A DNA stretch of 10,189 bases from a candidate division Zixibacteria bacterium SM23_81 (lineage in GTDB: Bacteria > SM23-81), in assembly GCA_001304015.1 (NCBI GenBank), contig LJUY01000082.1:1-10189 (forward strand), written 5' to 3'. The notes under the pieces are model-generated. The model did no database searches. It was not told the DNA's origin and worked only from the letters and a program-made list of their open reading frames with translations. Of the stretch, positions 2,174 to 7,999 are shown piece after piece (position 1 is the first letter of the stretch; each line of letters starts with the position of its first letter). The translations under genes and the position numbers were made by a program.

Positions 2174-2209
2174 AAGGCCACCCTCTCCAATGGGACGGTG
2201 GCCTTTTTT
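2174..2209 (+). terminator. Intrinsic terminator after rfbB
   Basis: A perfect 9-bp stem, AAGGCCACC at 2174-2182 with GGTGGCCTT at 2197-2205, is extended inside by a 4-bp helix (TCTC/GGGA, one G-U) around a CAAT loop after a C-C mismatch. The T run 2204-2209 follows directly. It lies 22 nt past the rfbB stop and ends the sugar-nucleotide unit. Confidence 0.87.
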
Positions 2210-2236: not shown

Positions 2237-2265
2237 TTGACTTCAAGGGCAGAATTTCATATTAT
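2237..2265 (+). promoter_or_regulatory. Sigma70-type promoter for the export/assembly operon
   Basis: TTGACT at 2237-2242 (five of six consensus -35 bases) and TATTAT at 2260-2265 (five of six consensus -10 bases) are separated by exactly 17 bp. The predicted transcription start is about 2271-2273. A short dyad, TCGA-ATA-TCGA (2272-2282), begins at that start and could be a minor operator or RNA hairpin. The site sits just after the rfbB terminator and before the export gene, where a new promoter is expected. Confidence 0.65.
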
Positions 2266-2295
2266 GTCGTGTCGAATATCGAGTTTTGTGAAAAG

Positions 2296-2319
2296 ATCAG
2301 GGAAATAGCCCTGATTTTT
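2296..2319 (+). terminator. Terminator-like hairpin in the 5' leader of the export gene (candidate attenuator)
   Basis: A perfect 7-bp stem, ATCAGGG (2296-2302) with CCCTGAT (2309-2315), has a six-base loop AAATAG, an A/G-rich foot at 2291-2295 and a T run at 2315-2319 continuing as a pyrimidine-rich tract to 2333. It lies downstream of the predicted start site and upstream of the export gene, so a transcript would meet it after only about 25-50 nt. It is weaker than the rfbB terminator. Either it is a leader attenuator for the operon or it acts as a second terminator for read-through. Confidence 0.6.
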
Positions 2320-2333
2320 CTTCTGTTCTTCTC

Positions 2334-2339
2334 AGGGGG
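2334..2339 (+). promoter_or_regulatory. Shine-Dalgarno AGGGGG that fixes the export-gene start
   Basis: AGGGGG at 2334-2339 lies 5 nt before the ATG at 2345. A GTG two codons upstream (2339) overlaps this site and so cannot use it, which favours the ATG. The sequence TCAGGG at 2332-2337 repeats the ascending arm of the leader hairpin and can pair with CCCTGA at 2309-2314, which would bury the ribosome site. Confidence 0.6.
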
Positions 2340-2344
2340 TGGGT

Positions 2345-4030
2345 ATGACCGTCTCCAGACCGTTCAGGTCCTTTTGGCTGATCTGTTCGATCTTGGCCTT
2401 CATCTTTGTGGCCAGGACAACCTCCCCTGAGGTGACGATGAGTAGACTGGACAGCTTGCGGCTCGAACATGAGAGGGGACGGCGCCCATTGCCATCCCAT
2501 CGCGTCATGATGAGCATGCTCGATAGCCTCAGGCTCAGCCAAGCGATATCGGCCAGGCCGGAACTGGATAGGGAGCAAGTTCTGGATAGGAATATAGAGC
2601 CGGAGAATTATGTGGTGGGACCCGGCGATGAACTCATCCTTATCTTATGGGGGGAGATTAGCCAAAGCTTTCTACTTGAGGTTACTCCAGAAGGCAAGGT
2701 TTTGGTCCCGCATGTGGGGGAAATCCTGCTCAGGCAGCTCACATTGGCGGAAGCGAGAGACAGAATTATTAGGAAGGTGGGAAAAAGGTACAGAAACGTG
2801 AACATCTCTGTATCTCTGACAAAAATAAGGAAGTTTCGGGTGTTCTTGGTCGGCTCGGTGAACCTTCCCGGCACGTACACGGCCACAGCCGTGGATCGTG
2901 TCTCCATGCTCATCGATCAGGCCGGTGGTTTGGCACCAGGCGCATCTAGAAGAAACATTCGGGTGACCAGGCAGGATTCCAGCACCGTTGACGCTGATCT
3001 TTTGCGCTTCATAGTCGTTGGTGATTTGGCGAGCAATCCCTATGTTGTGGATGGAGACGTCGTGACAGTACCCGTCCGTGTGGATTCAGTGGGCGTGTTT
3101 GGAGCCGTCAATATTGAGGGGTACTATGAGTTGAAACAGGGAGATCGAATCAGTGACCTGGTTGAGCTGTCTCGCGGCTTGGTTAGGGATGTCTATATGG
3201 AGAAGGCCGAGCTGGTTCGATCCCAGGAAGATCAGAGGGGGGCCGAGCATATCTTCATCGATCTGGCCAAGGCTGTTGTGGACAAGGATCCCGAACATAA
3301 CCTGTATCTACAGAGCGATGACGTATTGCTGGTCCGCCACGAGCCCGAGTGGCATCCGGAATACTTGGTAGAAGTTCGGGGTGAAACCGTTTTTCCGGGC
3401 CACTACGCCATCGAAAAGAACAAAACGTACCTGAGCGAAGTGATGGAAAGGGCTGGAGGTCCCAAACTAGACGCCTCTTTGAGCGAGGCTAAGTTAATTA
3501 GAACACTTTATGAGGATAATCCCGACTTGGAGTTTGAGCGCTTGATGGAGATGCCCGTAGCCCAGATGAGCGACGACGAGTACTCATATTTCAAGACAAA
3601 ATCCAGACAGCTGCATGAGGTGGTTGTGGTAGACTTCGAGGGGCTTTTTCTGAAGAACGACAAGAGCAAGGATATCTTGCTCAAGCGAGGCGACATCATC
3701 GACATCCCCGCCATTCGGAAAACGGTGAACGTGAACGGGCTTGTGAATGACCCCGGTGCCGTTCAGTACAGGTCCGGGAAGAAGCTGGGCTACTACATCG
3801 ACCAGGCGGGCGGTTATCATTCAAACGCCCGCAAGAGCAGGATGCGTGTGATCAAAGCAAGCACCGGCCAATGGTTGAAGCCCAGCAAGGTGAAGCGTAT
3901 CGAGCCGGGAGATATCATCTGGGTGCCTGAGAAGCCAGAGAGGAACTACTGGGAGCTCTTCAAAGACCTCGTGAGCACCACCGCTCAAGTGGCCACGGTC
4001 ATCCTGGTGATAGATCAGGCAAGGAAGTGA
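2345..4030 (+). CDS. Polysaccharide export outer-membrane protein (OPX/Wza-like, multi-SLBB)
   Basis: This protein forms the outer-membrane channel through which the finished polymer leaves the periplasm. It is 561 residues from the ATG at 2345, longer than the roughly 380 of E. coli Wza because of extra SLBB domains. Order: hydrophobic signal sequence at about 9-23; a linker with two copies of MSxLDSLRL (about 32-40 and 56-64); the poly_export domain beginning YVVGPGDELILILWG at about 89; and four SLBB-type units with start marks VGSVNLPGTY (169), FGAVNIEGYY (252), RGETVFPGHY (345) and NGLVNDPGAV (464). Three of the units contain a QAGG or ERAGG turn. A C-terminal hydrophobic helix (about 541-556, STTAQVATVILVI) may span the outer membrane like the Wza barrel helix. 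The only early Cys (14) is in a poor lipobox, so it is probably not a lipoprotein. It is the first gene of the second operon, 37 nt before the co-polymerase. Confidence 0.87.
   Translation: MTVSRPFRSFWLICSILAFIFVARTTSPEVTMSRLDSLRLEHERGRRPLPSHRVMMSMLDSLRLSQAISARPELDREQVLDRNIEPENYVVGPGDELILILWGEISQSFLLEVTPEGKVLVPHVGEILLRQLTLAEARDRIIRKVGKRYRNVNISVSLTKIRKFRVFLVGSVNLPGTYTATAVDRVSMLIDQAGGLAPGASRRNIRVTRQDSSTVDADLLRFIVVGDLASNPYVVDGDVVTVPVRVDSVGVFGAVNIEGYYELKQGDRISDLVELSRGLVRDVYMEKAELVRSQEDQRGAEHIFIDLAKAVVDKDPEHNLYLQSDDVLLVRHEPEWHPEYLVEVRGETVFPGHYAIEKNKTYLSEVMERAGGPKLDASLSEAKLIRTLYEDNPDLEFERLMEMPVAQMSDDEYSYFKTKSRQLHEVVVVDFEGLFLKNDKSKDILLKRGDIIDIPAIRKTVNVNGLVNDPGAVQYRSGKKLGYYIDQAGGYHSNARKSRMRVIKASTGQWLKPSKVKRIEPGDIIWVPEKPERNYWELFKDLVSTTAQVATVILVIDQARK
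2438..2536 (+). repeat. Two copies of an MSxLDSLRL motif in the export-protein linker
   Basis: MSRLDSLRL and MSMLDSLRL occur 24 residues apart between the signal sequence and the poly_export domain. Their codons differ at several synonymous sites, so the peptide, rather than a recent DNA duplication, appears to be conserved. Function is unknown; it may be a short docking or helix-capping element in the periplasm. Confidence 0.5.
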
Positions 4031-5330: not shown

Positions 5331-6776
5331 ATGAACCATTGGAGCATCGCTTCACAAGGCATGGATTCTTCCTCGCCGTCGAGGGCGTTTTTTTTATTTT
5401 TTCTCATCGCTCAGTTGGGATTTGTGCTTCTCTTTTCCCTCACCGGCTCCCCCTACCCTATCTTGCTGGTCTTGGTTGGCTTCTTCTTGCTTTTTAAAAT
5501 CGCGTTCTCCGTCAAAAACACCCTTTTTCTGGTATGCTTTTATATCATCGTTTTGCCGGGCTATGGCTGGGGCAGGCGTTATGCTTTTTATAAGATTTTC
5601 GTCTCCTATCCAGTCGTTACGGCTCTCATTTTTGCGGCAGCTTTGTTTTGGCTGGCCAGAACTGCCTTAAGAAGTGAGCGTACAAACCGTTTTGCAGCGC
5701 AGGATTTCGCTGTCCTGATCTTTTTGTCTGTGATAATCATCTCGGCCTTTATCGGTTTTATAAATGGTCATCAGACAAGATATGTCCTCAAGGAGCTCTA
5801 TTTCTTAAGCATGTATGGCATCTATTTCCTAGCACTCAAGGGCGTTGTTCAGCGCAATTGGGTTAAGCAGTTCTGGCAACTCTTAATCATAGCCACCTTT
5901 GTAGTTTCCCTTCAGTACCTCTTTCTGACGCTTTCTGAAGTAAGTGCCGGTGAGCTCTTTATTTCACGCGTGACAACCCAACAGCCCCACCTTGCGCAGC
6001 TTGCCATTCCCTATCTGGCAAGTTTTTTCTTTTTCCCATCTTCCCTAAGGGAGAAGCTCATTGCCTTTGTGCTTTCTGTGTCCATCCTCACCATGGTGTT
6101 TCTAAGTCAGCAAAGAAGCTTGTGGATTGGGGTATTCTTTTCGATCCTGCTTTTATGGATCTTTTACATTTATCGAAAGCGAGTTTCTCTTCTAGAAGTG
6201 GTCAGGGCCATCGCCGTCGTGGTCCTTTTCGTTGTGGTCGTGATCTCCATGCTGCTTCTATTAGACAAGATGTTTGCGGGGTCGACCTTAGCCACCCTGG
6301 CTGTTCGAGTCGAAACTCTGACAAGGTTGTCTGAGGATCAATCTGCGCTGGACAGGATGGCAGAGATACACATCGCACTTGGGCAATGGAAGCAGAATAT
6401 TTTCTTGGGAACGGGACTGGGCTCGACGATCCATCGGGTGGCCACCCATATGAGTTATGACATCCTTGACAATTCCTTCGCCTTTCTTCTTTGGAAGGCT
6501 GGTTTGCTTGGTCTTCTCTCTTATATGACCATAATTGTTCTGTTTTATCAGCGCGGTCTGGCTGTGTTCAGGAGGTTAGATGACGTTGAGACTCAGCGAA
6601 TCGTTGCATCATCTCTTTCAGGATTTTCCGGCTTGATGCTGATCGCTCTGACCAACAGCAGTTTGATGCAGTATCGATTTGTCCTTATTTGGGCTGTCCT
6701 TTTCGCTTCCCTGGAGTTTCTATACGGCAGGTCGAAAAAGGAAATCCAGACAGTACAATCCTCGGTCCGAGAGTGA
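5331..6776 (+). CDS. O-antigen polymerase/ligase-type membrane protein (Wzy-like)
   Basis: This is likely the polymerase joining lipid-linked repeat units at the periplasmic face of the inner membrane. It is 481 residues with about 12-13 hydrophobic segments between 19 and 464. Features of the Wzy_C/O-antigen ligase superfamily visible are LSQQRSLWIG (258-267) at a membrane boundary, a large periplasmic loop (about 312-380) ending NIFLGTGLGS (356-365), and LDNSFAFLLWKAGLLG (379-394), the typical N-x-hydrophobic-GllG close. Sequence alone does not separate polymerase (Wzy) from ligase (WaaL); position between the co-polymerase and the flippase favours polymerase. The AGAAGAG at 5318-5324, 6 nt upstream, supports the ATG at 5331; Met11 (5361) is a less supported alternative. 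It begins 33 nt after the co-polymerase stop. Confidence 0.82.
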   Translation: MNHWSIASQGMDSSSPSRAFFLFFLIAQLGFVLLFSLTGSPYPILLVLVGFFLLFKIAFSVKNTLFLVCFYIIVLPGYGWGRRYAFYKIFVSYPVVTALIFAAALFWLARTALRSERTNRFAAQDFAVLIFLSVIIISAFIGFINGHQTRYVLKELYFLSMYGIYFLALKGVVQRNWVKQFWQLLIIATFVVSLQYLFLTLSEVSAGELFISRVTTQQPHLAQLAIPYLASFFFFPSSLREKLIAFVLSVSILTMVFLSQQRSLWIGVFFSILLLWIFYIYRKRVSLLEVVRAIAVVVLFVVVVISMLLLLDKMFAGSTLATLAVRVETLTRLSEDQSALDRMAEIHIALGQWKQNIFLGTGLGSTIHRVATHMSYDILDNSFAFLLWKAGLLGLLSYMTIIVLFYQRGLAVFRRLDDVETQRIVASSLSGFSGLMLIALTNSSLMQYRFVLIWAVLFASLEFLYGRSKKEIQTVQSSVRE

Positions 6777-6797
6777 ACTTTGGGTTTTTCCAAAAGA

Positions 6798-7538
6798 ATG
6801 AAAATCTGCTTCGTCGGCAGCCTTCCTAAACCATATGGCGGTGTGGCCAGCCATTCCTTTCATCTGACCAAAGAGCTGGCCGGATTAGGCGTCAAAGTCG
6901 ATTTTATCGATACGCGTCTAGCCAAGAAAAAAACGGTGCCTTCGGGTGTCCGCCATCTGTTGATCGCCGACTTAAGCCTATCCTCTACCCTCAGGCAAAT
7001 TTCAAAGCTGCCCCGCTTGGGGGGGGCTTGGACCCAAATTATGAGGTATTGGAAGTGTCTACGTCCTCGCGACTTTATTAAGGTTATCTACATAATTCTC
7101 AAGATTTTGGACAGCTGTCGACCAGAGTCGGTCGATCTTTTTCACGCACAGCACGCCAACGAGAGGGCTCTGGCCACCTGGGTGGTGGCCAAGAGGTTCA
7201 AAAAACCTTTGGTGATCACAGCACATTGCGGCGAATTCACCGAGGATTTTTTTTGGTCACGCTGTTCTAGGTTAGTCAAGCATATGACCACAGTGGCGGC
7301 CAGGGTCATATCCGTTTCGAAATATACTCAAAAATGCATGATTGCAAGGGGTTGTAAAGGGCATGTGAGCATTATTCCTAACGGGGTGGACACTCACTTC
7401 TTCCGGCCGGGATTAGAAGTCAGCGAATTGCGGCGCAAATACAGATTAGTTTCGTCGGGGACATTCATCGACGGAAAGGGCCAGATGTGTTTCTCAAGGC
7501 GGTGCCTTTTGTTCTTGAGAAGAATTTCAAAGCGATAG
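6798..7538 (+). CDS. Glycosyltransferase family 4-type, N-terminal half (frameshifted gene, part 1)
   Basis: This is the acceptor-side half of a GT-B glycosyltransferase that would add a sugar to the lipid-linked repeat unit in the cytoplasm. It opens MKICFVGSLPKPYGGVASHS (residues 1-20), with the GGV loop typical of GT4 enzymes. FHAQHANE (115-122), TAHCGEF (141-147) and IPNGVDTHFF (193-202) follow, and the last is the usual linker into the donor-binding domain. After about residue 217 (LRRKYRL) the frame ceases to resemble the family and runs about 29 unrelated residues to a stop at 7536-7538. The natural continuation lies in the -1 frame (next entry). I chose the ATG at 6798 because the family N-terminus begins there; a TTG at 6780 is possible but only adds GFSKR. 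If read as is, this half lacks the donor site and would be inactive. Confidence 0.8.
   Translation: MKICFVGSLPKPYGGVASHSFHLTKELAGLGVKVDFIDTRLAKKKTVPSGVRHLLIADLSLSSTLRQISKLPRLGGAWTQIMRYWKCLRPRDFIKVIYIILKILDSCRPESVDLFHAQHANERALATWVVAKRFKKPLVITAHCGEFTEDFFWSRCSRLVKHMTTVAARVISVSKYTQKCMIARGCKGHVSIIPNGVDTHFFRPGLEVSELRRKYRLVSSGTFIDGKGQMCFSRRCLLFLRRISKR
7443..7452 (+). other. Approximate site of the -1 frame change in the glycosyltransferase
   Basis: Upstream of here the family sequence (LRRKYRL) is in the frame of the ATG at 6798. From base 7448 the -1 frame reads SFVGDIHRRKGPDVF, the expected first strand and phosphate-binding region of the donor domain. The exact base cannot be placed. A single missing base, whether real or an assembly error, is enough. 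No X-XXY-YYZ slippery heptamer is seen. Confidence 0.75.
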
Positions 7539-7999
7539 TTGTGGGTTCAAAAGGCGGTCAACAGGAGAGTCTCCGACAGTTGATCCATGAACTTTCCATC
7601 TCGCACCAGGTGCTCATGATCGAAGAGGTGGAACATGAACTTCTACCACAATTCTATAATTTGGCCGATATTTTTGTATTCCCAACGGTGATGAAGACCG
7701 AGGGATTTGGCATCGTAGCCCTAGAATCGATGGCCTGTGGGACGCCAGTTATTGCCTCTAGAATTGGAGGTATTCCAGAAGTGGTCAGAGAAGACCAGAC
7801 AGGTTTTCTCTTTGAACCAGGCAATTTCCAAGAACTGTCTGAGAAGATCAATGTTCTCCTGGCGGACGACGCCATGAGGGCCAATCTCGGAAGGGCAGGT
7901 AGAGAGCTGGTCGAGTCAGAGTATACCTGGACAGTTGTGGCTCAGAAGACATTGGATATCTATCGCGCCGCCATTATGAATTACCGATTTGGGAGATAA
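7448..7999 (+). CDS. Glycosyltransferase family 4-type, C-terminal half (frameshifted gene, part 2)
   Basis: This is the nucleotide-sugar-binding domain (Glycos_transf_1) belonging to the preceding half. The family match begins at about 7448 with SFVGDIHRRKGPDVFLKAVP, before the first available start (GTG at 7487), which shows that this is not an independent gene. Later marks are the AIVVGSKGG strand, the EX7E pair in TEGFGIVALE, and CGTPVIASRIGGIPEVV, which contact the nucleotide and donor sugar in GT4 enzymes. Joining the halves gives about 400 residues, normal for the family. The stop at 7997-7999 leaves 3 nt before the flippase gene. Codon usage and residue conservation look intact, which favours a very recent lesion or a sequencing error over an old pseudogene. 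Donor and acceptor cannot be predicted. Confidence 0.8.
   Translation, partial: SFVGDIHRRKGPDVFLKAVPFVLEKNFKAIVVGSKGGQQESLRQLIHELSISHQVLMIEEVEHELLPQFYNLADIFVFPTVMKTEGFGIVALESMACGTPVIASRIGGIPEVVREDQTGFLFEPGNFQELSEKINVLLADDAMRANLGRAGRELVESEYTWTVVAQKTLDIYRAAIMNYRFGR

Follow-up and report, generated by a model that had tools for sequence, protein, structure and literature searches.

A conserved terminator-like hairpin in the leader of a polysaccharide export operon of a candidate division Zixibacteria bacterium: a possible leaky attenuator

Gene Order and Assembly Context

The window, i.e., the whole stretch of 10,189 nucleotides analysed here, is the complete contig C50 of an assembly (G000) composed of 99 contigs and 3.07 Mb, with a completeness of 92.6% and a contamination of 4%. 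It carries, in order, a partial ugd, a dTDP-sugar epimerase-like gene, rfbB, a Wza/EpsE-like export gene, a Wzz-like gene, a Wzy-like gene, a split glycosyltransferase gene, a flippase gene and an open final ORF. The coding run that begins with the export gene reaches the contig end, and the operon is at least 8 kb long. The glycosyltransferase family 4 gene (6780–7999) is present as two overlapping ORFs in different frames, one with the N-terminal and the other with the C-terminal domain, which suggests a frameshift or an assembly error near 7450–7490.

The same assembly contains a second version of the locus (C21), which is 86% identical to the window over 5.6 kb and has the same leader arrangement. 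Since its variable genes differ while the flank matches, C21 may be a second locus or the version of another strain. At L003 3866–4470, about 300 nt of the start of the window's wzy-like gene remain after wzz in C21 without a long ORF, and beyond this remnant lies a different gene set, with a 529-aa protein and another Wzy-like protein; judged from the sequences, this difference would correspond to a serotype-like exchange inside the locus. The contig itself starts inside ugd, and positions 1–104 of the window are identical to C21 (L003 9671–9774) over about 100 bases, as expected for an assembly break at a repeat or strain variant.

Structure of the Promoter and the Leader

The features between rfbB and the export gene are given below; G001 is a genome of the same family as the window but of another genus.

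2176..2209, + strand: terminator 1, GGCCACC-C-TCTC-CAAT-GGGA-C-GGTGGCC (2176–2203) plus T6, which ends the upstream rfbB unit (folding, d score)
2237..2265, + strand: sigma-70-type promoter TTGACT-N17-TATTAT with a predicted start at about 2272 (10/12 consensus matches; kept in G001)
2272..2344, + strand: predicted untranslated leader of 73 nt, its start placed by the distance to the -10 box (in G001 the leader has 83 nt)
2296..2315, + strand: leader hairpin ATCAGGG-AAATAG-CCCTGAT with a perfect 7-bp stem (folding; arms identical in C21 and G001)
2316..2325, + strand: U-rich tract TTTTCTTCTG behind the hairpin core, a terminated leader RNA being predicted to end near 2320 (identical in C21; in G001 after one inserted C)
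2334..2347, + strand: ribosome-binding site AGGGGG and ATG start codon (2345) of the export gene (conserved in C21 and G001)
2345..4030, + strand: polysaccharide export protein (Poly_export and SLBB, Wza/EpsE-like), the first gene of the operon (Pfam PF02563, PF10531, PF22461; EpsE-like NCBIfam match below the cut-off)

First of all, the sequence-only reading of this stretch had described a strong terminator belonging to the rfbB unit itself (2174–2209), a near-consensus promoter and, about 25 nt past its start, a perfect 7-bp hairpin with a T run, and all of these held up, the hairpin lying 24 nt past the predicted start. Terminator 1 folds at −21.9 kcal/mol with its flanks and has a d score (the score of d'Aubenton Carafa and colleagues) of 28.5. 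The window has no surplus of promoter-like sites (8 observed against 8.6 expected from shuffles), so the promoter call rests on conservation, that is, on TTGACA-N17-TATTAT at the equivalent position in G001. An inverted repeat flanking terminator 1, CCCTTGAAGT (2161–2170) and ACTTCAAGGG (2240–2249), is broken in C21 and G001 and is therefore regarded as chance.

With added G-U and A-U pairs the hairpin stem reaches 11 pairs (2292–2319), and it is trailed by TTTTTCTTCT, the first Ts of which overlap this extension. The leader as a whole folds at −15.7 kcal/mol (z −3.1), the hairpin has a probability of >0.99 in the leader ensemble, and in nascent folding it forms once transcribed, with no competing structure; the AGGGGG sits 11 nt ahead of the start codon. 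With a 6-bp core the hairpin has a d score of 13.7 in the window and 11.4 in C21, which is terminator-like in both, while longer stems give −2 to 6; that is to say, the value for the window varies from −2 to 14 according to how the stem is cut. The G001 hairpin, with its 14-nt loop and a U tract broken by a C, has a d score far below zero (−46).

The hairpin occurs in excess over chance. A 7-bp Watson-Crick stem with a U tract was found in 6/5000 shuffled leaders of the window and in 23/5000 of G001, and of the 81 promoter-like sites counted in 400 kb of stretches sampled from the same genome, not one has such a hairpin within 10–90 nt; since the thresholds were modelled on this hairpin and chosen after it had been seen, these figures give its rarity and are no unbiased test. 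Moreover, ATCAGGG...CCCTGAT occurs in G000 only at the two leaders, in the window and C21.

Conservation of the Leader in Related Genomes

The leader comparison covers three sequences, two of which (window and C21) are nearly identical. The C21 leader is 93% identical to that of the window, which is no more than the upstream genes share; the pair is therefore of little use for judging selection, and its high identity was set aside as evidence. The comparison with G001 is more informative. Terminator 1, promoter, hairpin and ribosome-binding site follow in the same order there, behind a PorV/PorQ-family gene instead of rfbB. Between the window and G001, identity is 41% at the 4-fold synonymous sites of the export gene, which are thus nearly randomised, and 71% in a hand alignment of the leaders, whereas the hairpin arms agree at 14/14 bases around a loop that has changed from 6 nt to 14 nt. 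The chance of such identity in the arms is 4e-6 at the 41% rate, and 0.007 at a rate of 70%, similar to that of the leader itself. Because G001 keeps the promoter, the arms and TTTTCTTCTG in spite of the changed loop, upstream gene and synonymous sites, the hairpin is probably selected, as far as these alignments can tell, and its persistence in a related genus makes a real, functional control element probable. A functionless chance hairpin kept through shared descent would fit the small number of sequences and a window–C21 leader no more conserved than the flanking upstream genes, but it is very improbable in view of the 14 invariant arm bases in G001.

No loss of the hairpin was found, since the two homologous leaders available both have it. 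The sequence-only reading had looked to related leaders for a stem conserved with compensating changes, and only the first part stood, since the core stem is invariant in all leaders and variation is confined to the basal pairs. As there is no compensatory change in the stem, the pairing itself is not proved by covariation, and an invariant core argues neither for it nor against it. Terminator 1, strong in all three leader regions, does show one compensatory pair (G-C to A-U) among C21 and G001, in both of which it is kept. In G001 (L037 3206–3413) it is retained despite the unrelated upstream gene, as if terminator, promoter and leader travelled together with the export operon as a single unit.

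The second hairpin lies about 90 nt past terminator 1, and tandem terminators are common, so that it might be read as a backup terminator for the upstream gene, with an inactive or incidental promoter. This reading is improbable, because terminator 1 is far stronger, the -35 box, spacing and -10 box are conserved in another genus, and the upstream gene differs there. A further reading takes ATCAGGG-N6-CCCTGAT, a perfect inverted repeat at +25 to +44 just past the promoter, as a palindromic DNA operator for a dimeric repressor, and both half sites are indeed invariant in the three leaders. It is unlikely all the same: the half-site spacing is longer by 8 bp in G001, which is no helical turn and would not be tolerated by a rigid dimer, the A-U and G-U pairs outside the 7-mers and the one-sided T tract are also kept, and the site is found nowhere else in G000 beyond the two leaders.

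The phylum holds only four searchable genomes, and in two of them, from another family, the export gene overlaps with rfbB and has no leader; therefore the element is confined to one family in these data. Among GTDB contigs, only one further locus was found, which matches G001 (DAOVRJ01, Candidatus Zixiibacteriota), and among viral contigs none.

Search for a Switch in the Leader and in the Genome

Nascent folding of the leader gave no competing antiterminator fold, and a 76% inverted repeat (2290–2314 / 2364–2388), considered as an antiterminator, is not competitive in folding. There is no conserved leader peptide either: the candidate mini-ORFs of the window and G001 agree neither in frame nor in start or sequence and are without a conserved Shine-Dalgarno sequence (SD), and the mini-ORF GTG AAA AGA TCA GGG AAA TAG is not conserved in G001. 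Rfam models of riboswitches and leaders gave nothing near gathering scores.

Control at the level of translation was considered as well. In all three leaders CUUCUG can pair with CAGGGG, so that the SD could be masked by CUUCUG or by early codons. This is very improbable, since the predicted SD accessibility is unremarkable (11–34% of sampled genes are less accessible), and the alternative in which the 3′ arm of the hairpin pairs with TCAGGG of the SD has a probability of only ~1e-6.

As for protein factors, the sequence-only reading had raised processive antitermination by a NusG paralogue of the RfaH, UpxY or LoaP type and had suggested looking for such a gene. The search lends this no support. 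Each of the four genomes (G000–G003) has one PF02357 gene, the sole one of G000 sitting in the secE-nusG-rplK-rplA housekeeping cluster, and the locus itself has none; the absence of a specialised paralogue in G000 is not absolute, because the assembly is 92.6% complete. The statement that no ops/JUMPstart-like element is visible was confirmed for ops, as no site with 0–1 mismatch exists in the window and the one match with 2 mismatches falls inside terminator 1. Nor was a UNCG dfn-type hairpin seen in the leader, the loop being AAAUAG. CsrA (PF02599) has no match in G000 or G001 and was found in the controls and in G002, and GGGA was accordingly rejected as a CsrA site. BglG/SacY-type antiterminator proteins (CAT_RBD) were not found, with positive controls, and the search for ANTAR proteins gave no match, but it matched no control genome either.

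A Possible Leaky Attenuator as the Favoured Explanation

In well-studied phyla, the gating of long polysaccharide operons often takes place once transcription is under way. The stretch would be understood as a dedicated promoter–leader module of the polysaccharide export operon. Transcription would start near 2272, the nascent RNA would fold the hairpin 24 nt downstream, and hairpin and U-rich tract would serve as an intrinsic terminator, weak or partial, or as a pause, releasing a leader RNA of about 50 nt and thereby lowering and setting the share of polymerases that enters the operon. From the arrangement we infer that the promoter is active, and that termination takes place and is partial. 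Among the readings considered, such a leaky attenuator explains the data best, though it is held tentatively, at somewhat under an even chance.

The attenuator proposed by the sequence-only reading thus survives in part. In its favour, a conserved terminator-like hairpin with a U tract and, in the window and C21, a terminator-like score stands between the promoter and the first gene; against it, G001 has a poor score, compensatory changes are missing from the stem, and no candidate antiterminator factor was found. Since no built-in switch is seen in the leader, neither a competing fold nor a conserved peptide, any control would have to be external, exerted by a trans-acting factor or by the general conditions of elongation, and a fixed dampener is equally likely. 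Such a fold or peptide marks only the attenuators that switch themselves; one that is constitutive or regulated in trans can do without it. A narrower proposal is a lineage-specific attenuator of a polysaccharide operon, in a lineage without detectable NusG paralogues, with the invariant ATCAGGG/CCCTGAT stem as the recognition site of some trans-acting factor that switches it; this is rather unlikely.

A serious rival, possible though on the doubtful side, is that no termination occurs and that the 5′-UTR hairpin shields the long mRNA from decay at its 5′ end, or binds an RNA-binding protein or a small RNA. It is the stem that is conserved, not its quality as a terminator; two invariant arms fit sequence-specific recognition, and the near-certain formation of the hairpin in the ensemble agrees with such a role. 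On the other hand, TTTTCTTCTG is kept directly behind the stem, where a mere stabiliser would not need it, a stabiliser is most effective at the very 5′ end and this hairpin lies 24 nt in, and, for the binding variant, neither G000 nor G001 gave a CsrA match.

Compared with known systems, the leaky attenuator would resemble the intrinsic-terminator attenuators of biosynthetic operon leaders in the succession of promoter, short leader, GC-containing hairpin with U tract and first operon gene; it differs from them in that no leader peptide, riboswitch or competing antiterminator fold was found and that terminator quality is lost in G001. The LoaP/dfn leader of Bacillus antibiotic operons also places a terminator hairpin ahead of the first gene of a long operon, and LoaP requires a separate UNCG-type recognition hairpin in the leader beside the terminator (PMC12691694), whereas here there is one conserved hairpin, with the loop AAAUAG, and no NusG paralogue. 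With RfaH/ops and Bacteroides UpxY (PMC7593976) the locus shares the type of operon controlled, a polysaccharide operon, and it differs in having no ops-like element and no NusG paralogue in genome or locus. In this literature the recruiting elements are the UNCG hairpin and ops (PMC12691694, PMC7593976).

If the leader terminates transcription, it would be a compact, testable element and an example of such gating from the FCB group, in a lineage that is uncultured and has no detectable NusG paralogue; if it does not, it is an ordinary conserved 5′-UTR hairpin.

Other Terminator-like Sites in the Window

Further terminator-like sites lie inside the operon. One of them, CGCCGTCGAGGGCG followed by T8-A-T6 (5374–5402), is located just within the start of the wzy-like gene; its d score is 38, its stem is weak (−6.1 kcal/mol), and it is identical in C21 (L003 4386–4399, minus strand). 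Another is found at 6000–6022. In total the + strand has 4 over the 10 kb, where 160 kb of the genome would predict 0.7. The internal sites may be explained by T runs that code for membrane segments.
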